Below are positions 30,833-41,009 of a stretch of 60,994 nt of DNA, piece after piece. The DNA comes from Gemmatimonadota bacterium (GTDB taxonomy: Bacteria; Gemmatimonadota; Gemmatimonadetes; Gemmatimonadales; GWC2-71-9). The notes under the pieces were generated by a model. It was not told where the DNA came from. It worked only from the letters and a program-made list of their open reading frames with translations, and ran no database searches. The first letter of the stretch is position 1. Each line of letters starts with the position of its first letter. The DNA is taken from NCBI GenBank assembly GCA_020350425.1, contig CP070716.1, positions 1,832,887 to 1,893,880 of the forward strand. Reading direction: 5' to 3'. A program made the position numbers and the translations under genes.

Positions 30833-32764
30833 ATGTCGGTAAAGCGCACGCTCACCGCCGCCACGCTGGTTTCCATCGCAGTCGCAGCGCCCGCCCTCGC
30901 CCAGGACCCGATCCCCCCAGCCGAGGCGCTGGAGGGTGCGTTCCAGGCACAGAAGCACTTCTCCCCCTACGCGGGGCGCAACTTCCCCACCCAGGTGTAC
31001 TGGGGTGACACGCACCTGCATACGGGCCTGTCCATGGACGCGGGCGCTTTCGGGGCGCGGCTCACGCCGGAGGACGCGTATCGCTTCGCGCGGGGCGAGG
31101 AGCTCACCTCGTCCACCGGCCTGCAGGTGAAGCTGGGCCGGCCGCTCGACTTCCTGGTCGTGGCCGATCACTCCGACAACATGGGCTTCTTCCCACGGCT
31201 GTTCGCCGGCGACCCCGGTATGTTGGCCGACCCCACTGGCCGGCGCTGGTACGACATGGTGCAGGCCGGTGGTCAGCAGGGTGTCGCGGCCGCCGTCGAG
31301 GTCATCGTCGCGTTCTCGCAGAACCAGTTTCCCGAGGCATTGGCTTCCCTACCGGGGAGCCCGGCCTACCGCGCGGCGTGGGAGGAGATGATCGACGCGG
31401 CCGACGAGTACAACGATCCCGGTGAGTTCACGGCGTTCATCGGCTACGAGTGGACCTCCAACACGGCCGGGAACAACCTGCACCGCGTCGTGATCTTCCG
31501 GGACGACGGCGCCAAGGCCACTGTTGTAGAGCCCTATACAACGCTGGCACCGCTAGGCAGCGACAACCCGCGCGACCTGTGGAACTGGATGCAGGCGTAC
31601 GAGGACAAGACGGGTGGGCAGGTGCTGGCGATCGCGCACAACGGCAATCTCAGCAACGGCATCATGTTCCCGATCGTGGACTCGTTCACGGGTCGGCGGT
31701 TCGACCGCGCCTACGCCGAGACGCGCGCGGCGTGGGAGCCCCTCTACGAAGCCACCCAGATCAAGGGCGACGGCGAGGCGCACCCGTACCTCTCGCCGAC
31801 CGACGAGTTCGCCGACTACGAGACCTGGGACAAGGGCAACCTCGACCTCAGCGTGGCGAAGCAGAACGACATGCTGCAGTACGAGTACGCCAGGTCAGGC
31901 CTGCAGATCGGGCTGCAGCTCGAGCGGCAGCTCGGCGTGAACCCCTACAAGTTCGGCATGATCGGCTCGACCGACAGCCACACCGGCCTCGCCACCGCCG
32001 AGGAGGAGAACTTCTTCGGCAAGCACTCCGGCACCGAGCCGGGACCCGAGCGCTACAAGCACCCGATGGCGGAAACGCCGAACGGGCGCTACGAGAGCTG
32101 GGACATGGTCTCGTCCGGCTACGCCGCAGTGTGGGCCACCGAGAACACGCGCGAGGCGATCTTCGACGCCATGATGCGGCGGGAGACGTACGCCACCACC
32201 GGCTCGCGCATGCTGGTGCGGTTCTTCGGCGGGTGGGAGTTCACCGCCGCGGACGCGCAGAGCCGGCTCCCCGGCGCGCTGGGCTACACCAAGGGCGTGC
32301 CGATGGGCGCCGACCTGCCGGCGCGATCGGGCAACGGGGCGCCGACGTTCCTGGTGGCCGCGCTGAAGGATCCGTTCTCGGGCAACCTCGACCGCATCCA
32401 GATCGTGAAGGGCTGGCTGGATGCACGTGGTGAGCGGCACGAGCAGGTGTACGACGTCACCTGGAGCGATACCGACCGCCGCCAGCCCGGCGCCGACGGC
32501 AAGCTCCCCCCAGTGGGCAACACCGTCGACGTGGCCAACGCGACGTGGACCAACACCATCGGCGCGCCGGAGCTGATCACGGTGTGGACCGATCCCGACT
32601 TCGACCCGTCGCAGCCCGCCGTGTACTACGCGCGCGTGCTCGAGATCCCGACGCCACGCTGGACGGCGTACGACGCCAAGCGGTACGGGATCACGATGGA
32701 TCCCGAGGTCCCGATGACGACCCAGGAGCGGGCCTACACCAGCCCGATCTGGTACACGCCGTAA
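30833..32764 (+). CDS. DUF3604 secreted protein
   Basis: A 643-residue protein with a signal peptide (about 1-23, ALAQ). It opens with the DUF3604 hallmark YWGDTHLHTGLSMDAGAFG, then DFLVVADHSDNMG, FTAFIGYEWTSN, IAHNGN, MIGSTDSHTGLA and METYATTGSRMLVRFFGGW-like motifs (RRETYATTGSR). The His/Asp pattern (GDTHLHT, ADHSD, HN, DSH) resembles PHP-type metal hydrolases, so a metal-dependent esterase or phosphatase role is plausible but unproven. A weak promoter (TTGCGG 30760, TACAGA 30781) lies upstream. It is followed by a beta-barrel, a PPIase and a HupE-like gene. Confidence 0.9.
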   Translation: MSVKRTLTAATLVSIAVAAPALAQDPIPPAEALEGAFQAQKHFSPYAGRNFPTQVYWGDTHLHTGLSMDAGAFGARLTPEDAYRFARGEELTSSTGLQVKLGRPLDFLVVADHSDNMGFFPRLFAGDPGMLADPTGRRWYDMVQAGGQQGVAAAVEVIVAFSQNQFPEALASLPGSPAYRAAWEEMIDAADEYNDPGEFTAFIGYEWTSNTAGNNLHRVVIFRDDGAKATVVEPYTTLAPLGSDNPRDLWNWMQAYEDKTGGQVLAIAHNGNLSNGIMFPIVDSFTGRRFDRAYAETRAAWEPLYEATQIKGDGEAHPYLSPTDEFADYETWDKGNLDLSVAKQNDMLQYEYARSGLQIGLQLERQLGVNPYKFGMIGSTDSHTGLATAEEENFFGKHSGTEPGPERYKHPMAETPNGRYESWDMVSSGYAAVWATENTREAIFDAMMRRETYATTGSRMLVRFFGGWEFTAADAQSRLPGALGYTKGVPMGADLPARSGNGAPTFLVAALKDPFSGNLDRIQIVKGWLDARGERHEQVYDVTWSDTDRRQPGADGKLPPVGNTVDVANATWTNTIGAPELITVWTDPDFDPSQPAVYYARVLEIPTPRWTAYDAKRYGITMDPEVPMTTQERAYTSPIWYTP

Positions 32765-32922
32765 CGAGCGGCTCGATTCACGAGCGACGCGGGCCGGCCT
32801 GGACAGCCCAACGGCACCCTGTTTGGCCCATCGGTTTGACGTGCCGAGCCCAGGGGGTGACCGATGCGCCCCCCCCGAATGAACCACGAACGTCGCGGAA
32901 CACGCGACACGGGAGAGACATC

Positions 32923-33777
32923 ATGCGTCATCGCACCAGGGCCATCACGTGGGCGCTGCTGCTCGCAGGCATGCCACTGGCGCTCGGCGTGGTGCCGCTC
33001 GCGGCTCAAGAACAGACGCGCGAGTCCATGGCGTTGGACAATACCGCAGCCCAGTGGTCTTTCCAGTTCGCCTACCAGCGGATGCTGGACTACCGACAGG
33101 ACACGCTGGCCAACGGCTTCGTCCGCCCCGCGGGCAACAAGGGATACGCCCAGTTCCGCATGGTGGCACCCATTTCGCTCGGCACGGTGACCATCCTGCC
33201 GCGCCTGACGGCGCGCCTCTCCGAGAACAAGGACGGAGAGTGGGGGCTCTCACCTACTGACCTGTTCGCACTCATCGTGCCGTTCCAATGGTCCACCGGC
33301 CGCCTCGGTGTCGGCCCGGATCTGGTGTTCCCCGGCAGCGCCAAGGTGGGCAGCAACGAGTGGGCTTATGGGCTCGCGGGCGCGGTGATTCAGCGGTTCT
33401 TCGACGAGAAGTTGATGGTCGGGCTGCTGCTGCAGCAGACGTGGGGCCGCCGCGACGTGATCGACCCGGATCAGCCCGTGCCCACCGACAGCACCGAGAC
33501 GGGAGCCAACCCGATCATCATCAACCCGTTCGTCAATCTCCAGCTCGGAAACGGGTGGTATCTGGGCACCAACGATTTGCAGGCACAGTACAGCTGGGAG
33601 TTCGGCGGCTGGAAGCTCCCGGTCGGCGCACGCCTCGGGTACGTGCTGGTGCGCCCCAAGAACTCCTGGAACTTCTACGTCGAGTACGCCACGGACTTCG
33701 CCACCGGCGATTGGCCAGGCGCGGCTGCGAAGCACAAGGTCCGCATCAACGCGTCGTTCTCGATTCCGGTGGGGTGA
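32923..33777 (+). CDS. Outer-membrane beta-barrel protein
   Basis: A 284-residue protein starting at ATG 32923, chosen for the GGGAGAG Shine-Dalgarno and the signal peptide that follows (about 1-28, VPLAAQ). The mature part is made of alternating hydrophobic strands with aromatic girdles (GYAQFRMVAPISLG, LSPTDLFALIVPFQWS, GLAGAVIQRFFDEKLMVGLLLQQTWG, INPFVNLQLGNGWYLG) and ends with KVRINASFSIPVG, typical of a 10-12-strand barrel. Function is unknown; it may be the outer-membrane partner of the DUF3604 protein. The 32765-32922 gap shows only the Shine-Dalgarno. Confidence 0.8.
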   Translation: MRHRTRAITWALLLAGMPLALGVVPLAAQEQTRESMALDNTAAQWSFQFAYQRMLDYRQDTLANGFVRPAGNKGYAQFRMVAPISLGTVTILPRLTARLSENKDGEWGLSPTDLFALIVPFQWSTGRLGVGPDLVFPGSAKVGSNEWAYGLAGAVIQRFFDEKLMVGLLLQQTWGRRDVIDPDQPVPTDSTETGANPIIINPFVNLQLGNGWYLGTNDLQAQYSWEFGGWKLPVGARLGYVLVRPKNSWNFYVEYATDFATGDWPGAAAKHKVRINASFSIPVG

Positions 33778-33943
33778 GATCACACGTTGCTGTGGAGCGG
33801 CTACTCGGCGGCCCGTCGCGTTCACCCTGCAGGCCGAGCCTCCACGAGGTGACGCGGGAAGAGTCGCAGATGTCCTCGCGCAGGCGACCACACGCTGCTG
33901 GCGACATCGCCGGTCAGATCTGGTAACCGCCGTAGCGACTCCG

Positions 33944-33949
33944 TAGGTT
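33944..33949 (+). promoter_or_regulatory. Putative -10 box of the PPIase/HupE operon
   Basis: TAGGTT, of the same type as the -10 boxes before the SPOR lipoprotein and MBL genes, lies seven bases before an ATG at 33957. No good -35 is visible (TGGTAA at 33921 is the nearest). The remainder of 33778-33943 shows no gene or clear structure. Confidence 0.35.
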
Positions 33950-33956
33950 CGGACCG

Positions 33957-34037
33957 ATGCGGGCCGGTCCGGGAACGTCGACGTCACCCGGCTCGGCCCG
34001 CACCCTCAGAGTACGGGAAACGACTGACCGACAATGA
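33957..34037 (+). CDS. Possible 26-residue leader peptide, overlapping the PPIase start
   Basis: An ATG placed seven bases after TAGGTT starts a 26-codon frame (MRAGPGTSTSPGS and on, Ser/Thr/Arg-rich) that ends in TGA at 34035-34037, overlapping the next gene's ATG by four bases (ATGA). No Shine-Dalgarno precedes either ATG. It could be a leaderless leader peptide that delivers ribosomes to the PPIase start, or a chance frame. There is no family resemblance. Confidence 0.35.
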   Translation: MRAGPGTSTSPGSARTLRVRETTDRQ

Positions 34038-34936
34038 ACGAAAAACTCACACGCTGGCTGCGCGAGCCGCTGGTGCACTTTCTGGCCATCGGCGTGGCGC
34101 TGTTCGCCGTGAACGCCCTGCTCACCCGCGGGGAGTCGAACGACGCAGCCGACCGCCGCGTCACGGTGACGGAGGCGGAGGTCCGGTGGCTGCGCGACAC
34201 CTGGCAGAGCCGCTGGCAGCGCCCCCCCACCCAGGCGGAGCTGCGGGGCCTGGTGGACGACTACGTGCGCCAGGAGATCCTCTACCGCGAGGCCATCGCC
34301 ATGGGACTCGACCGGGACGACGAGGTCATCCGGCGGCGCATGGTGCAGAAGATCGAGTTTCTCACCAACGACCTGGCAACCCAGGTGCAGCCCACCGAGC
34401 CGCAACTCCAGGCCTACTTCCAGCAGAACCTCGACCGCTACCGCATTCCCGAACTGCGCAGCTTCGCGCACGTCTACTTCAACCTCGACCAGCGCGGTGA
34501 GGCAGCCGTTGCGGATGCGGAGCAGCTCGTCGCCCGGCTTCGCAGCGAAACACCCGGCACCGTGCGCCCCGCCGAGCTGGGGGACCGCTTCATGCTGCAG
34601 CATGAGTACCGGCTGCAGAGTGAGCAGGACGTCGGGCGGATCTTCGGTCAGCGCTTCGCCGGCGCGCTGTTCGAGCTGGAGCCTGGCGAGTGGCAGGGCC
34701 CGATCGGCTCCGGCTACGGGCTGCACCTCGCGTACGTAACGGAGGTCGAAGAGCCGCAAATGCCCACCCTGGCGCTGGTTCGCGGCGACGTGCTGCGGGA
34801 TTATGCCTCGGAGCTGCGAGAGCAGGCGAACGACGCGATGCTCGCCAGCGTGCGCAGTCGTTACACCGTGGAGATCGACGAAGCGGCGATCCGCGTGCTG
34901 GCACTCGGCGGGGATTCGTCGGTGGGAGACCGCTGA
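34034..34936 (+). CDS. Membrane-anchored parvulin-type peptidyl-prolyl isomerase
   Basis: A 300-residue protein with one N-terminal transmembrane helix (about 13-30, VHFLAIGVALFAVNALL) and a periplasmic remainder. An N-terminal helical SurA/PrsA-like segment follows (LRGLVDDYVRQEILYREAIAMGL, then RRRMVQKIEFL), then a PpiC-like domain (about 135-235: ELRSFAHVYFN, AEQLVARLRS, GRIFGQRFAGALFELEPGEWQGPIGSGYGLHLAYV). Proteins of this kind often sit beside HupE/UreJ-like and DUF3604 genes; here HupE follows after one base. It probably folds a secreted or outer-membrane partner. Confidence 0.87.
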   Translation: MNEKLTRWLREPLVHFLAIGVALFAVNALLTRGESNDAADRRVTVTEAEVRWLRDTWQSRWQRPPTQAELRGLVDDYVRQEILYREAIAMGLDRDDEVIRRRMVQKIEFLTNDLATQVQPTEPQLQAYFQQNLDRYRIPELRSFAHVYFNLDQRGEAAVADAEQLVARLRSETPGTVRPAELGDRFMLQHEYRLQSEQDVGRIFGQRFAGALFELEPGEWQGPIGSGYGLHLAYVTEVEEPQMPTLALVRGDVLRDYASELREQANDAMLASVRSRYTVEIDEAAIRVLALGGDSSVGDR

Positions 34937-34937
34937 C

Positions 34938-37157
34938 GTGCGTGCGCTGCTACGGGCATTCGTGCTCCTTTCGGCGTTGGCCGTCGCGGCACCCGCCGCG
35001 GCCGATGACGTTCCGCCGGTGCAGGTGCAGCTCAAGGAGCGCGAACCCGGGTCCTTTCTGGTGCAGTGGTTCGTGCCGTCGGTCATTCCGGCGCAGGCGA
35101 TGCCCCACCCCGAGCTGCCGACCCACTGTCGTCCAGAGGGCGAGCGGGTGGTGCTTGCCCAGTCGGGCGGCTGGCTCAACCGCCAGGCGTACCGCTGCCC
35201 CGGAGGGCTCGCCGGCCACGCCATCGGCATTCGCTACCCGGTGCCCAACCCCGCGATCCGCACGGTCATGCGCCTCGAGCTGCTGTCAGGCGAGCGGTTC
35301 GCGCACGCCCTGGGGCCGATGGAGACCGGCTGGCAGGTGCCTGAGGCAAACGTCGGGCCGTTCACTCAGTGGTCGCGCGACGCGCGGAGTTCCGTGCTCG
35401 GCGGCGCACGGCACATTGTGGGTCACTGGGTGCACGTGTCGTTCCTGCTGGCGCTCGTAGTGCTGGGTGGCGCGCTCGGCTCGATCCGGCTCGTGACCGC
35501 GTTCGCGGTTGGGCAGCTCGCGGCGGTCGGGATCACCGTGCTGCTCGGCCGGCCGCTCAGTGCGGTCGTCGCCGAGATCTGCGTTGCCGTCGCCGTGGTG
35601 TTCCTGGCGCGGGAAGCGCTACGGTCAGCGCCGCAGCGGCGGCGCGCGGCCGGCGTGGCCGCCGGGGCCGGGTTGTTCCACGGCGTAGCCCTGGCAGCCT
35701 TGCTGCCGGCCGCTCCCGGCGGGGGCGCCGTTTCCTGGTCGCAGCTCCTCGTGCTCGTGCTGGGGATGGACGCGGCACTCCTCGTGCTGGGCACGATGGC
35801 CGCGTCCCTGGGTCGGCTCGTGACGCGGCGCTCGCCGCTCGCGGGGGCGCGCGGACGCGCGGCCCTGACCTACGTGCTGGGGGGCACCGCCGTCGCCGCC
35901 GCGCTGTCGCTGGCGGTGGCAGGGCAGATCGGTGATGTCGCTGCCACGCCGACCGCCCCACAGCTCCCCGGCGCCGGCGCAGGTCCCACCGGTGCCGGGA
36001 TGCCGGGCTCGCGGCGGGTCGCCACGCAGCGGCTCGACATCCCGATCCAGAGCTACCTGGCGGTGGAGCCGTTCGAGGTGCGACACGAGGCGCTGCTGCG
36101 GCTGCAGGACCTGGCTCCCGAGATCGGCGTGCGCGTGCCTCAGGACGGCGACCTCGCGGTCGCAGCACAGGACGAGGTGGGCCAGCGCCTCGCCGAGTTC
36201 GTCGCCGCGCGAACCACCGTTGCGATCGACGGCGCCCCCGCCGACGGCCTCATCGACCGCGTCAGCTTCATGACCGTCGACCCGCAGGGCGTGCTGCCGC
36301 GGCAGACGCCGGTACCCGAGGCCGTGGACGAGGCGTTCGTGGGCGTGACGGTGGTGTATCTCACCTCAGGAATGCCGCAGAACGTGACCCTCACCTGGGA
36401 GACGTTTCCCGGAGCGGGAGCGGCCATCCCCGCCACGGCGATCGACCCCGAGTCGTCACGCTCGACGATGCTGACGCCCGAGGAGCCGGCGCTGCGCTGG
36501 CAGAACGAGCTCATGGAGAGCCCGGTGCCGACGGTGGCCGCGGTGGCCGTCGAGCCACCCGAGCTGCCGGTACCGCTGCTCTCGCTGCTGTGCGTCGGGC
36601 TGGCGATCACGCTTCTCGCGGTCGCCTGGCGTGGGTGGAACCGCACGACGTCGCTCGCCACCGCTCGCGTCACGCTGGCCCTGGCGTTCGCCGCAACCCC
36701 GCTGGCGCAGGTATCGCTCACCCTCCCGACGTCAATCGGGCGAGTGACGTCACCGCACCAGGCGCGTCGCGTGCTGGCGAGCGTGCTCCCCAACGTCTAC
36801 CGCGCGTTCGAGTTTCGCGACGAGGGCGCGGCCTACGACCGGCTCGCCGTGGCGGTCACGGGGCCCACGCTCACCGACATCTACCTCGAGCACCAGCGCG
36901 CGATGGTGATGGAGGAGCGCGGCGGCGCGCGGGCCCGCGTGGACGCGGTCGAAGTAACCGAGGTCCGAACCGTGGAGCCGCGCGAGGGCGGTGGCTTCGA
37001 CGCCGAAGCTTCGTGGACCGTCGGGGGCACGGTAACGCACTTCGGCCACCGCCACTTTCGCCAGAACCGTTACGACACACGCGTCGCGGTCGTGCCGGTG
37101 GACGGCACGTGGAAGATCGAGTCGATCGAGATCCTGGAGCAAGAGCGGCTGAAGTAA
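34938..37157 (+). CDS. HupE/UreJ-like membrane protein with long C-terminal extension
   Basis: A 739-residue protein starting at GTG 34938 with a signal peptide (about 1-22). Residues 25-150 are a periplasmic beta-rich domain. Residues about 150-345 hold six to seven helices of the HupE/UreJ type (GARHIVGHWVHVSFLLALVV, TAFAVGQLAAVGITVLL, GAGLFHGVALAALL). The family's HxxxDH-like and xxHS metal positions are only partly kept: H154-like and the later FHG remain, but TAFT-x-HS has become TAFAVGQ. A second periplasmic beta domain (about 365-555), one more helix (about 562-580) and a final domain of about 130 residues with WTVGGTVTHFGHRHFRQN follow. Transport of nickel or cobalt is not safe to assume. 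Confidence 0.83.
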   Translation: MRALLRAFVLLSALAVAAPAAADDVPPVQVQLKEREPGSFLVQWFVPSVIPAQAMPHPELPTHCRPEGERVVLAQSGGWLNRQAYRCPGGLAGHAIGIRYPVPNPAIRTVMRLELLSGERFAHALGPMETGWQVPEANVGPFTQWSRDARSSVLGGARHIVGHWVHVSFLLALVVLGGALGSIRLVTAFAVGQLAAVGITVLLGRPLSAVVAEICVAVAVVFLAREALRSAPQRRRAAGVAAGAGLFHGVALAALLPAAPGGGAVSWSQLLVLVLGMDAALLVLGTMAASLGRLVTRRSPLAGARGRAALTYVLGGTAVAAALSLAVAGQIGDVAATPTAPQLPGAGAGPTGAGMPGSRRVATQRLDIPIQSYLAVEPFEVRHEALLRLQDLAPEIGVRVPQDGDLAVAAQDEVGQRLAEFVAARTTVAIDGAPADGLIDRVSFMTVDPQGVLPRQTPVPEAVDEAFVGVTVVYLTSGMPQNVTLTWETFPGAGAAIPATAIDPESSRSTMLTPEEPALRWQNELMESPVPTVAAVAVEPPELPVPLLSLLCVGLAITLLAVAWRGWNRTTSLATARVTLALAFAATPLAQVSLTLPTSIGRVTSPHQARRVLASVLPNVYRAFEFRDEGAAYDRLAVAVTGPTLTDIYLEHQRAMVMEERGGARARVDAVEVTEVRTVEPREGGGFDAEASWTVGGTVTHFGHRHFRQNRYDTRVAVVPVDGTWKIESIEILEQERLK

Positions 37158-37762: not shown

Positions 37763-38416
37763 ATGACGACACCCCAGAGCGACCCCTCGCGCGATCACAC
37801 GGAGGAGCGGGCCATCCTCCAGCTCAGCCGCCTCGAGCGGTTGAGCGACGTCGTCTACGCCCTCGTCATCCTGCGCATCTTCCTGTTCGTGCCCCGCCCC
37901 GGCGACGACGACTGGCACTGGACCACGATCGGCGCGTTCGTGCTGGACAACTGGATGACGTTTGCAGCGGTGCTGGTGGCCATCGCCATCACGATCATCT
38001 ACTGGCTGCAGAGCAACGTCCTGTTGGGCCACCTGGTGCGGACGGACGGACGGCACACGTCACTCATGATCGGGCAGCTGTTCTTCCTGTTCTTCTTCCT
38101 GTATGCGATCGGCCTGGGGATCAACCTCGGCCCGTCCGCCGGCGCCAGGACGTTCGAGAGCGTCACCGCGGCGCTGCTCGGCATCAGCGGCGGCTGGGCG
38201 TGGGCGTACGCCATCAGGCGGCGACGCCTGCTGCGGCCCGACGTCACCGACGAGGAGGCACGCGCGCTGGCCCACCGCATCCTGGCGGAGCCGATCACGG
38301 CGATGGTCACGATCCCGTTCGCGTTCGTGGGGCCGGGCCTGTGGGAGCTCTCCTGGCTGAGCTACCCGCTGTGGGTGAGGCTGCTGAAACGCCGCCGGCG
38401 GGGCGCGAACGGGTAG
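37763..38416 (+). CDS. TMEM175-like (DUF1211-type) membrane protein
   Basis: A 217-residue protein with about six helices. Its first helix reads RLERLSDVVYALVILRIFLFV, close to the TMEM175/DUF1211 pattern RxxxFSD(G)VFAIA in which the FSD triad shapes a potassium channel; here Phe is replaced by Leu (LSD). Helices follow near 50-75, 88-108, 120-135 and 165-190, with a basic C-terminus. Channel activity is possible but the altered triad makes it uncertain. Confidence 0.7.
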   Translation: MTTPQSDPSRDHTEERAILQLSRLERLSDVVYALVILRIFLFVPRPGDDDWHWTTIGAFVLDNWMTFAAVLVAIAITIIYWLQSNVLLGHLVRTDGRHTSLMIGQLFFLFFFLYAIGLGINLGPSAGARTFESVTAALLGISGGWAWAYAIRRRRLLRPDVTDEEARALAHRILAEPITAMVTIPFAFVGPGLWELSWLSYPLWVRLLKRRRRGANG

Positions 38417-38430
38417 GGGACAGAGCGAAT

Positions 38431-39384
38431 ATGGCGCCGACGAGGGACGGGGAGCGGGCACGCGGGCGAGAGGGCGGCGCCCGACGCGCCAGCGGTTGGC
38501 TGGTCGCGCTACTCCTGCTACTTCCCGCGACCGTTGCGGGCCAGGAACTCGAACCGCGTGCCCTGGCCAACGTGCCGGTCGGCTGGAACTTCGCCGTGCT
38601 CGGTTACGGCTATGCCACCGGCAACATTCTGCTCGACCCGGCAGTTCCGATCGAGGACCTCAATTCCCGGGTTCATACCGTCGTCGGCGCCTACGTGCGC
38701 TCCCTGTCGCTCTTCGGCCTGTCCAGCAAGCTCAACGTGCTCGTTCCGTTCGCCTCGGGGTCGTGGGAGGGCCAGCTCGAGGGACAGGACACGAGCCGGG
38801 CGGTGACCGGCTTCGGGGATCCCCGCGTTGCGCTCTCGTTGAATTTCGTGGGAGCGCCGGCGCTGCGCGCTTCCGAGGCCCGGAGCTATCAGCAGAAGAC
38901 GATCGTCGGCGCGAACCTCCGGGTTACCGTACCGCTGGGCCAGTACGACCCGTCGAAGCTCATCAACCTGGGCTCCAACCGCTGGACCTTCCGGCTCCAG
39001 GTCGGAGCATCGCACGCCACCGGCCCCTGGATTCTGGAAGCGTATGCGGCCGCCTGGTTCTTCACCGCCAACCCCGACTTCTTCGGCGGCTCCAAGCTCG
39101 AGCAACAACCGCTCTCGGCATTCAAGCTGCACCTCATCCGATCCGTAGGGCGCCGCTTCTGGATCGCCCTGGACGGGGGCTACGGGATCGGCGGCCGCTC
39201 GGCGATCGATGACGTCGATACGGAAACCCTGATCTCCACCTTTCGCTTCGGCCTCACGGGGGCCTTTCAGGTGGCGCCGCAGCACACGGTACGGCTCGTG
39301 CTCGCGAGTGGGAAAAGGGTGCTGCGCGGTGCGGATCACGATGCCATCGCGCTGACGTATCAGTTCCGCTGGGGGGGATCGTGA
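38431..39384 (+). CDS. Outer-membrane transporter-like beta-barrel (MetA-pathway family type)
   Basis: A 317-residue protein from ATG 38431 with a basic N-region and signal peptide (about 22-38, ending TVAGQ). The mature chain has barrel strands with features of the phenol-degradation MetA-pathway family: LANVPVGWNFAVLGYGYATGNIL, YVRSLSLFGLSSKLNVLVPF, GFGDPRVALSLNF, GANLRVTVPLGQYD, WTFRLQVGASHATGPWILEAYAAAWFF and LTYQFRW at the end. Substrate unknown. The stop overlaps the BamA-like gene (GTGA). Confidence 0.85.
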   Translation: MAPTRDGERARGREGGARRASGWLVALLLLLPATVAGQELEPRALANVPVGWNFAVLGYGYATGNILLDPAVPIEDLNSRVHTVVGAYVRSLSLFGLSSKLNVLVPFASGSWEGQLEGQDTSRAVTGFGDPRVALSLNFVGAPALRASEARSYQQKTIVGANLRVTVPLGQYDPSKLINLGSNRWTFRLQVGASHATGPWILEAYAAAWFFTANPDFFGGSKLEQQPLSAFKLHLIRSVGRRFWIALDGGYGIGGRSAIDDVDTETLISTFRFGLTGAFQVAPQHTVRLVLASGKRVLRGADHDAIALTYQFRWGGS

Positions 39385-41009
39385 CCGTTCGCATCGGGTG
39401 GGCGCTCGGCCTCGTGGTCGGCGCGTGGGCCGGCCCACTCGCCGCCCAGCAGATCTCCCCGCCCCCACGCACCATCGACACGATCGTGATCATCACGCAG
39501 GACCCCTTCACGCCGGAGGAGGCCGAGGGGAAGGCTCTGTTCCGCGCGATGAACAAGCTCCACATCACGACCAAGCTCAAGGTGATCTTCGACGAGCTGC
39601 TGTTCCGCGTGGGGGAGCCGTTCGATCCGGTCAAAGTGCAGGAGTCGGAGCGCAACCTGCGCACACGGGAGATCTTCAAGTCGGTGCGGCTCGACACCGC
39701 GACCGTCGGCGGCAAGTTTGCCGTCATCGTGGACACGCAGGACGGCTGGACCACCAAGCCCAACCTCCGGTTCAGCGTCGCCACCGACGGCACCTGGACC
39801 GGCCGGTTCGGCCTCACCGAGTCGAATCTGCTCGGGCGCGGCAACCTGGCGAGCGCCGCGTTCGTGAAGGAGGTGGACCGGCAGGGGCTCGAGCTGGCGG
39901 CCAACTTCCGCCGCATTGGCGGCAGCCAGGTACGGGCCAAGGGGCTGGCGACGTTCTGGAACGATGGCCGTGACGGGTGGTGGCGCGCCGGCGATCCGTT
40001 CTACTCCAACCTTGACCGACTCGCCATCGATTACGACGGGCAGGCGGCGGGACGACGCGTGCTGCGGTACCGTGTGGACAGCGCCGGCACCGACACCACC
40101 GAGTACCGCCGCGCCGCATCCATCAACCGGCTCTGGGGCGGCTTCGCCACCACGGCACGTCCGACGCGCTACCTGCGGCTCGGCGCGCAGGGTGAGATCC
40201 GCCAGGAGAAGTTCGTGCTGGTGCAGGACACCGGCACGGCCGTACCCGACAGCGTGTACGGCGTCGTGGGGCTCTGGGCCGAGTACCAGCGCACCCGGTT
40301 CACCGAGATGCGCTACTTCAACGGCTTCGGCACCGAGGACATCGACGTCAGCACACGCGTCAGGCTCACCGTCAACATCGCACCGGACGCGTGGGGCTAC
40401 GCCAGCAACGGCATCGGCCCCCAGCTCGAGGCAGCGTGGGGCAGCGCCGGGCGGAGGGGCTTCTTCGCGGCCGTGCTCAAGGCCAACGCCCTGTTCAACG
40501 ACGCCGGCCTCGACTCGGGGCGGGTCGTCTTCGACCTGACGCTGGGCACGAAGTTCGCCGAGCGCCACTCGACGGCGCTGCACATCGAGGGCGGAGTACT
40601 GGAAAACCCACCGCCGGGGGAGGAGTTCGACCTCGGCTTCAACACACCGCCGCGCAGTTGGGGGGCACACTCCTTCGTGGGCACGCGCGCCATCTGGGGG
40701 ACCCTCGAGCACCGCTGGTATCCCCTTGAAGCGCTATTCAAGCTGATCTCGCTCGGGTTCGCCGCGTTCTTGGACTATGGGGGCGCCTGGTATCCCGACC
40801 AGGAAGCGCGCTTCGGAGGGAACATCGGCATCGGGCTGCGACCCGGGGGAGCGCTCGGCACCGCGGCGCGGACCGGGCGGATCGACATCGGGTACCGGTT
40901 TGGGGAAGGTGCAGATCAGGGCGGCCGCCTCGTGCTCACGTTCGGCGGCTCCATCGTGTTTCCGTGGAACAAGGACGCCGGGGCCCTGGTGAAGAAGGAC
41001 GGCCCCTAG
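39381..41009 (+). CDS. BamA/TamA-like outer-membrane protein with a single POTRA-like domain
   Basis: A 542-residue protein starting at GTG 39381 with a signal peptide (about 1-23). Residues about 30-115 look like one POTRA domain (TIDTIVIITQDPF, FDELLFRVGEPFDPVKVQESERNLR, IFKSVRLDTATVGG). The rest is a 16-strand-type barrel of the bacterial surface antigen class (FGLTESNLLGRGNLASAAFVKEV, RYFNGFGTEDIDVSTRVRL, GTLEHRWYPLEALF, FLDYGGAWYP, RIDIGYRFGEG). A full BamA has five POTRA units, so this is a smaller Omp85 member, possibly coupled to export by this cluster. Its stop lies one base from that of the convergent DUF2520 gene. Confidence 0.85.
   Translation: MTVRIGWALGLVVGAWAGPLAAQQISPPPRTIDTIVIITQDPFTPEEAEGKALFRAMNKLHITTKLKVIFDELLFRVGEPFDPVKVQESERNLRTREIFKSVRLDTATVGGKFAVIVDTQDGWTTKPNLRFSVATDGTWTGRFGLTESNLLGRGNLASAAFVKEVDRQGLELAANFRRIGGSQVRAKGLATFWNDGRDGWWRAGDPFYSNLDRLAIDYDGQAAGRRVLRYRVDSAGTDTTEYRRAASINRLWGGFATTARPTRYLRLGAQGEIRQEKFVLVQDTGTAVPDSVYGVVGLWAEYQRTRFTEMRYFNGFGTEDIDVSTRVRLTVNIAPDAWGYASNGIGPQLEAAWGSAGRRGFFAAVLKANALFNDAGLDSGRVVFDLTLGTKFAERHSTALHIEGGVLENPPPGEEFDLGFNTPPRSWGAHSFVGTRAIWGTLEHRWYPLEALFKLISLGFAAFLDYGGAWYPDQEARFGGNIGIGLRPGGALGTAARTGRIDIGYRFGEGADQGGRLVLTFGGSIVFPWNKDAGALVKKDGP

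Follow-up and report, generated by a model that had tools for sequence, protein, structure and literature searches.

Described systems and the window locus

Metal acquisition by enzymes that are exported unfolded is poorly understood. In Bacillus, exported enzymes receive Mn from TerC proteins, which also co-precipitate with the parvulin PrsA (PMC10550928); Sphingobium TCM1 makes Sb-PDE, a secreted, Zn-containing PHP phosphodiesterase (PMC5460133); and the HupE/UreJ-2 anglerase permeases are described in PMC12537917 (all three papers are cited from partial text). Here we compare these systems with a locus in a 60,994-nucleotide stretch of a Gemmatimonadota genome, referred to below as the window (genome G000, contig 1, 1832887–1893880; genome size 2.87 Mb), in which genes for a predicted secreted DUF3604 protein, a membrane-anchored parvulin-type protein (PpiC) and a HupE/UreJ-2-type membrane protein (HupE) lie close together. 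No paper on a DUF3604-PpiC-HupE cassette was found in the PMC literature searched, where DUF3604 itself appeared as a mere listing entry.

Of the systems known from experiment, Sb-PDE comes closest to the DUF3604 protein, for which a PHP fold is also predicted, together with a Sec-type signal (signal peptides and cleavage sites were judged by eye) and conserved metal-ligand-like residues. The DUF3604 protein is longer (643 amino acids (aa) vs. 441 aa), adds a C-terminal Ig-like domain and has no match to the Pfam PHP model PF02811; the available text of PMC5460133 on Sb-PDE names no DUF. The TerC proteins MeeF and MeeY, with PrsA and LtaS, offer a second likeness, a membrane metal protein and a parvulin tied to the metallation of an exported enzyme (PMC10550928), although TerC belongs to Pfam03741 rather than HupE and its members act as general helpers, whereas the cassette genes stand beside one client enzyme. 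Like the anglerase permeases, the cassette HupE carries PF13795 and a periplasmic N-terminal domain, and its short form keeps the His spacing of 7 and 28 of the predicted HupE site (His194, His201, and His229; PMC12537917). The cassette HupE profiles, however, gave no match to the Ang-1 crystal sequence, and two motif residues as well as the N-terminal His are missing from the window HupE, whose Ang-1/ZrgA-like fold follows the membrane bundle. The cassette PpiC shares PF13145 and an envelope location with SurA, PrsA and PpiC proteins, and its profile matches SurA and PrsA chains, but it forms a subfamily of its own, almost confined to DUF3604-bearing genomes, in which a His of the window protein is often Gln.

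Recurrence of DUF3604, PpiC and HupE

The three genes recur together well beyond the window. For an unbiased count we used 80 loci obtained by scanning with DUF3604 alone and sought partners within 4 kb using window-derived profiles: both PpiC and HupE were nearby in 50, HupE alone in one (L039), neither in 17, and the flank was too short in 12. Across a whole-genome survey of 299 Pseudomonadota (E ≤ 1e-20 for the PpiC subfamily and E ≤ 1e-10 for DUF3604), PpiC was present in 18 genomes, DUF3604 in 19, and both in 17, the exceptions being weak or partial (a weak PpiC in G562, a fragment in G352 and a divergent protein in G443). Fisher's test on this overlap gave p = 1.4e-24 (2.1e-23 without the chosen centre genome), values that overstate certainty, given the non-independence of the genomes and a PpiC profile trained on copies linked to DUF3604; the almost complete overlap of the two families holds without them. 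At the PpiC places in the survey, with the chosen centre G306 left out, HupE adjoined 20 of 20 and DUF3604 18 of 20. Among 24 DUF3604-bearing genomes reached via the loci, 23 had a PpiC match (E ≤ 1e-15); the match in G316 was weak, with no HupE nearby. Generic PF13795 proteins are common in Gemmatimonadota (124 of 200 genomes), and a cassette-type PpiC stood beside one in 1 of 30 examined loci.

Gene order varied. Seven orders were found in 72 non-redundant trio loci (58 DUF-Ppi-Hup, 7 Ppi-Hup-DUF, and 7 in five other orders), so the linkage survives rearrangement; 10 of 113 representatives had been dropped from this set for a short flank, and the set is biased upward because some regions were fetched for their PpiC. 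Two or more full DUF3604 copies occurred in 19 of the 80 scanned loci, which would suit one helper pair serving several enzymes. Recurrence in unrelated bacteria, named beforehand in the first-pass annotation as the test of its proposal, was thus strongly supported for DUF3604, PpiC and HupE, by the 50 loci and by the 17 shared genomes, and the claim of a functional unit stands for these three through co-occurrence and adjacency. The proposal had included a fourth gene, the putative outer-membrane barrel, which proved to be an occasional neighbor (5 of 80).

The trio is also carried on plasmids. All eight annotated plasmid regions, from rhizobia and a Rhodobacter, name DUF3604, peptidylprolyl isomerase and HupE/UreJ proteins, and ppiC and hupE overlap by 4 bases in seven of them; plasmid records matched 80 times for DUF3604 and 78 times for PpiC, in nearly identical genera. 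When 77 DUF3604 proteins were placed in a tree, the window protein grouped with full support in a set of 18 rows that span seven named phyla. This mixture suggests exchange between phyla, but the rows are mostly metagenome bins, the scan favors close relatives and paralogues are present.

Predicted properties of the three proteins

The DUF3604 protein was modeled with AF2 from a 70-sequence alignment (pLDDT 92.2, pTM 0.89). PHP-domain chains held ranks 1–10 in a VIA comparison (Z 15.6 to 7.6), led by 3e38 (Z 15.6, 226 residues, 3.5 Å) and 2anu (Z 15.1, 211 residues, 3.3 Å), with the best non-PHP chain at rank 11 (Z 4.5). Some of these top-ranked chains are PHP by title, and the others we take to be PHP. 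Nine residues (H61, H63, D69, H113, E206, H217, H269, D381, and H383) were each conserved at a level of at least 0.99 among 111 sequences, and their order (H, H, D, H, E, H, H, D, H) is presumably that of the PHP ligand set, as far as the residue letters go. Nine residues coordinate metals in a PHP phosphatase, according to the available text of PMC5460133. PF02811 gave no match to the window protein at E ≤ 0.1, PF12228 alone matching, and no solved structure related to it by sequence was found. This confident model points to a PHP metallo-phosphoesterase fold, and we predict a secreted PHP-type metallo-phosphoesterase; the first-pass label of a metal-dependent hydrolase is supported by the fold and the nine near-invariant His, Asp and Glu residues, with the activity itself a prediction. 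DUF3604, still of “unknown function” in Pfam, would gain a fold and a probable PHP-type phosphoester-hydrolysis chemistry.

The window PpiC has both a PPIC-type domain and a membrane anchor, the hydrophobic N-terminal anchor is conserved, and the cassette profile matches SurA and PrsA chains. It plausibly folds the DUF3604 protein.

HupE occurs in two forms in the cassettes, a short one of ~335 aa and a long one in the window and ten others. All 84 complete short HupEs carried His-Asp-His-His, a count that excludes the truncated long forms L002, L004, and L029 and the broken fragment L284, and the residue after the signal is His in many short HupEs and Asp in others. Among the long forms the motif Asp was lost in 11 of 11 and the third His had become Gln in 9 of 11. 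The window HupE keeps two of the three motif His, and after its predicted signal cleavage it has no N-terminal His, reading AAA and then DDVPP by eye. Its PF13795 score was 39.6 bits vs. 149.5 bits for the genome’s short copy; a second PpiC-HupE pair in this genome (L170:7976-9783; G000:C1:1014957-1016815) is of the short form, with the motif intact and an N-terminal His, and lies far from any DUF3604. The earlier suggestion that HupE moves a metal therefore fits the short form and fits the long form of the window badly, and metal transport by the window’s own HupE is doubtful on these residues.

The long form carries two further domains, separated by two helices, in a model with pLDDT 81.9. 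For the second periplasmic domain the top Foldseek match was 9gce (E 7.2e-5), and VIA gave 8f1b (Z 10.9), 9gce (Z 10.5), and 7ahw (Z 9.5), which places it closest in fold to Ang-1 (9gce), a Cu-binding domain, and to ZrgA and PA4063, which bind Zn. The His of an EVRHE stretch in this extension is not kept in all long forms, and for that reason metal binding by the second domain stays a candidate property.

Proposed function and alternative readings

The reading that we put at roughly an even chance is that the trio is a cassette for making and activating one secreted metalloenzyme, with a dedicated foldase and a metal-handling membrane protein. The apo-DUF3604 protein would be exported unfolded via Sec and folded in the periplasm by the inner-membrane-anchored PpiC, with metals supplied or handed over by the HupE-type protein; once mature, the enzyme would hydrolyze a phosphoester bond, perhaps of a diester, either in the periplasm or outside. 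In the window lineage the long HupE may serve for docking or handover and not as a permease, because its membrane site is partly lost and second periplasmic and NTF2-like domains have been gained; this role is the weakest step of the mechanism. Fold, conservation and co-occurrence were computed, and the folding client, the metal handover and the phosphoester substrate are what we infer. If the cassette reading is true, the pairing of one client enzyme with a foldase and a metal protein of its own, spread over many phyla, would offer a genetically compact test system for metallation. A more far-reaching version, tentative and on balance unlikely, is that of a self-contained secretion-coupled metallation cassette spreading between phyla, in which the HupE of the window lineage is a non-transporting “pseudo-permease” whose added domains hand over metal or hold the client.

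Several observations weigh against the cassette reading. At the genomic level these are the 17 full-flank loci without either partner and L039 with HupE only (most checked genomes lacking partners near DUF3604 hold a PpiC-HupE pair elsewhere), the weaker support from Gemmatimonadota, where cassette-type PpiC was present in 9 of 14 DUF3604-bearing genomes and not seen in the other 5, and PpiC-HupE pairs without DUF3604 (L170, L172, L173, L177, and L281, with a related pair at L299). At the protein level, Foldseek with the DUF3604 model returned no match at E ≤ 0.001, potassium channels ranking on top and the PHP chains 9etk and 3e0f appearing at E 0.005–0.011. A His of the window parvulin domain aligns with Gln in 11 of 21 sequences, with His in 9 and with Leu in 1, so peptidyl-prolyl isomerase catalysis may not matter. 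The window HupE lacks two of the four motif residues, Asp and the third His, and the known role of HupE/UreJ proteins is import, which would carry metal away from a periplasmic enzyme unless the handover falls to the periplasmic domain.

An improbable alternative is metal or nutrient uptake. Outside the membrane, DUF3604 would act on a chelate or an organic phosphorus compound and set free a metal or small molecule, which HupE would import, with PpiC merely folding envelope parts. PMC12537917 proposes metal capture and import by HupE/UreJ-2 proteins, a His follows the signal frequently in short HupEs, an outer-membrane-like protein occasionally stands alongside the trio, and one plasmid cluster includes a CobW-type protein; yet Asp, the third His and the N-terminal His are all missing from the window HupE, and in clusters inspected by eye no metal regulator, TonB receptor or ABC transporter was prominent among shared neighbors beyond close relatives. 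The substitutions in the long HupE, Asp in every long form and the third His in most, together with its two added periplasmic domains, would also suit a scaffold that docks foldase and enzyme and transports nothing, metal loading being spontaneous. We give this reading a low probability as well, for two of three His are retained in the window protein and the window genome holds an intact second PpiC-HupE pair. That the trio genes are co-inherited passengers with no joint function, as their place on many rhizobial plasmids and the seven-phylum DUF3604 clade might indicate, is very improbable given that neighbors outside the trio are not kept beyond close relatives while the trio itself is kept in seven arrangements and co-occurs genome-wide.

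Gene layout and neighboring genes

All four genes described in a row by the first-pass annotation were found as open reading frames on the plus strand (Table 1), and the spacing of 1 base between PpiC and HupE was confirmed (PpiC stop 34936, HupE GTG start 34938). The automatic start for HupE, 34803, falls inside PpiC, which makes 34938 the likely start. The 2.87-Mb genome has one DUF3604 copy. Searches for promoters, terminators, RNA families and tRNAs gave nothing useful.

Table 1. Genes and predicted domains of the DUF3604 locus, in window positions.
Feature	Position	Strand	Basis
DUF3604 gene, 643 aa, signal peptide	30833-32764	+	PF12228 827 bits, E 1.1e-248
PHP-fold catalytic part of DUF3604 (predicted), ~aa 53-450	30989-32182	+	compact PHP chains align to ~model residues 53-458
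C-terminal Ig-like beta-sandwich of DUF3604 (predicted), ~aa 457-643	32201-32761	+	many weak Ig-like rows, Z 3-4; model strands
Putative outer-membrane barrel gene, 284-aa secreted protein (barrel is the first-pass label, unconfirmed)	32923-33777	+	homologues at other loci
PpiC gene, membrane-anchored periplasmic parvulin-type foldase, SurA/PrsA-like	34034-34936	+	PF13145 57.5 bits
HupE/UreJ-2-type membrane protein gene, long form, 739 aa	34938-37157	+	PF13795 39.6 bits (cut-off 24.5), long-form alignment
N-terminal periplasmic beta domain of HupE, aa 28-133; Asp, not His, after signal	35019-35336	+	model strands, N-terminal comparison
Transmembrane bundle of HupE, aa 141-335; His-Val-His-Gln in place of His-Asp-His-His	35358-35942	+	motif comparison, model
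Second periplasmic domain of HupE, aa 366-535; anglerase Ang-1/ZrgA/PA4063-like fold	36033-36542	+	Foldseek, VIA
C-terminal NTF2/VirB8/ARC6-like domain of HupE, aa 597-739	36726-37154	+	VIA Z 11.9 (5d9r); many NTF2-like rows, Z 8.7-10.5

The barrel was rejected as a core member, being present at 6 of 81 loci by neighbor clustering and at 5 of the 80 that the scan with DUF3604 yielded. It recurs with the trio in Roseobacter-group and Gemmatimonadota loci, with homologues at L005, L011, L034, L047, L085, L090, L092, and L211 and partial ones at L003 and L293; neither the barrel protein nor four relatives had a Pfam match. Neighbor clustering revealed no other gene family shared around the trio beyond close relatives, and no neighbor named a pathway: arylsulfatase, DUF481, DUF2092, multihaem cytochrome, CobW and MBL proteins each occurred in single or few plasmid clusters. 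On a Rhizobium indicum plasmid (L298:10044-12661) an MBL-fold protein and then a CobW-family protein (PF02492, 167 bits), a possible metal link, follow PpiC-HupE-DUF3604, and on a Rhizobium leguminosarum plasmid (L290:1184-7174) genes for an arylsulfatase, a HAD hydrolase, a multihaem cytochrome and a DUF481 protein lie just upstream of the trio. Penicillin-amidase-family proteins are encoded divergently to the PpiC-HupE genes at L180:9712-12207 and to the DUF3604-PpiC-HupE genes at L181:3562-6072.

Among eight divergent Gemmatimonadota DUF3604 proteins (L270–L277, several on short stretches), the PpiC-HupE pair was absent from seven and present at L270 (6210-11688), beside a protein of 863 aa that scores 65.5 bits with PF12228 and begins like a lipoprotein. 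A sister system that lacks DUF3604 lies at L299:6244-9640, where the HupE of a PpiC-HupE pair differs at its N-terminus and the neighboring gene encodes a solute-binding protein of the DctP type. Farther along the window, an outer-membrane protein at 39381-41009, without a Pfam match, resembles BamA weakly (37 bits with NCBIfam TIGR03303, against a cut-off of 297), and downstream of HupE, at 37763-38416, lies a gene for a TMEM175-family potassium-channel-like protein (PF06736, 26 bits, cut-off 25).

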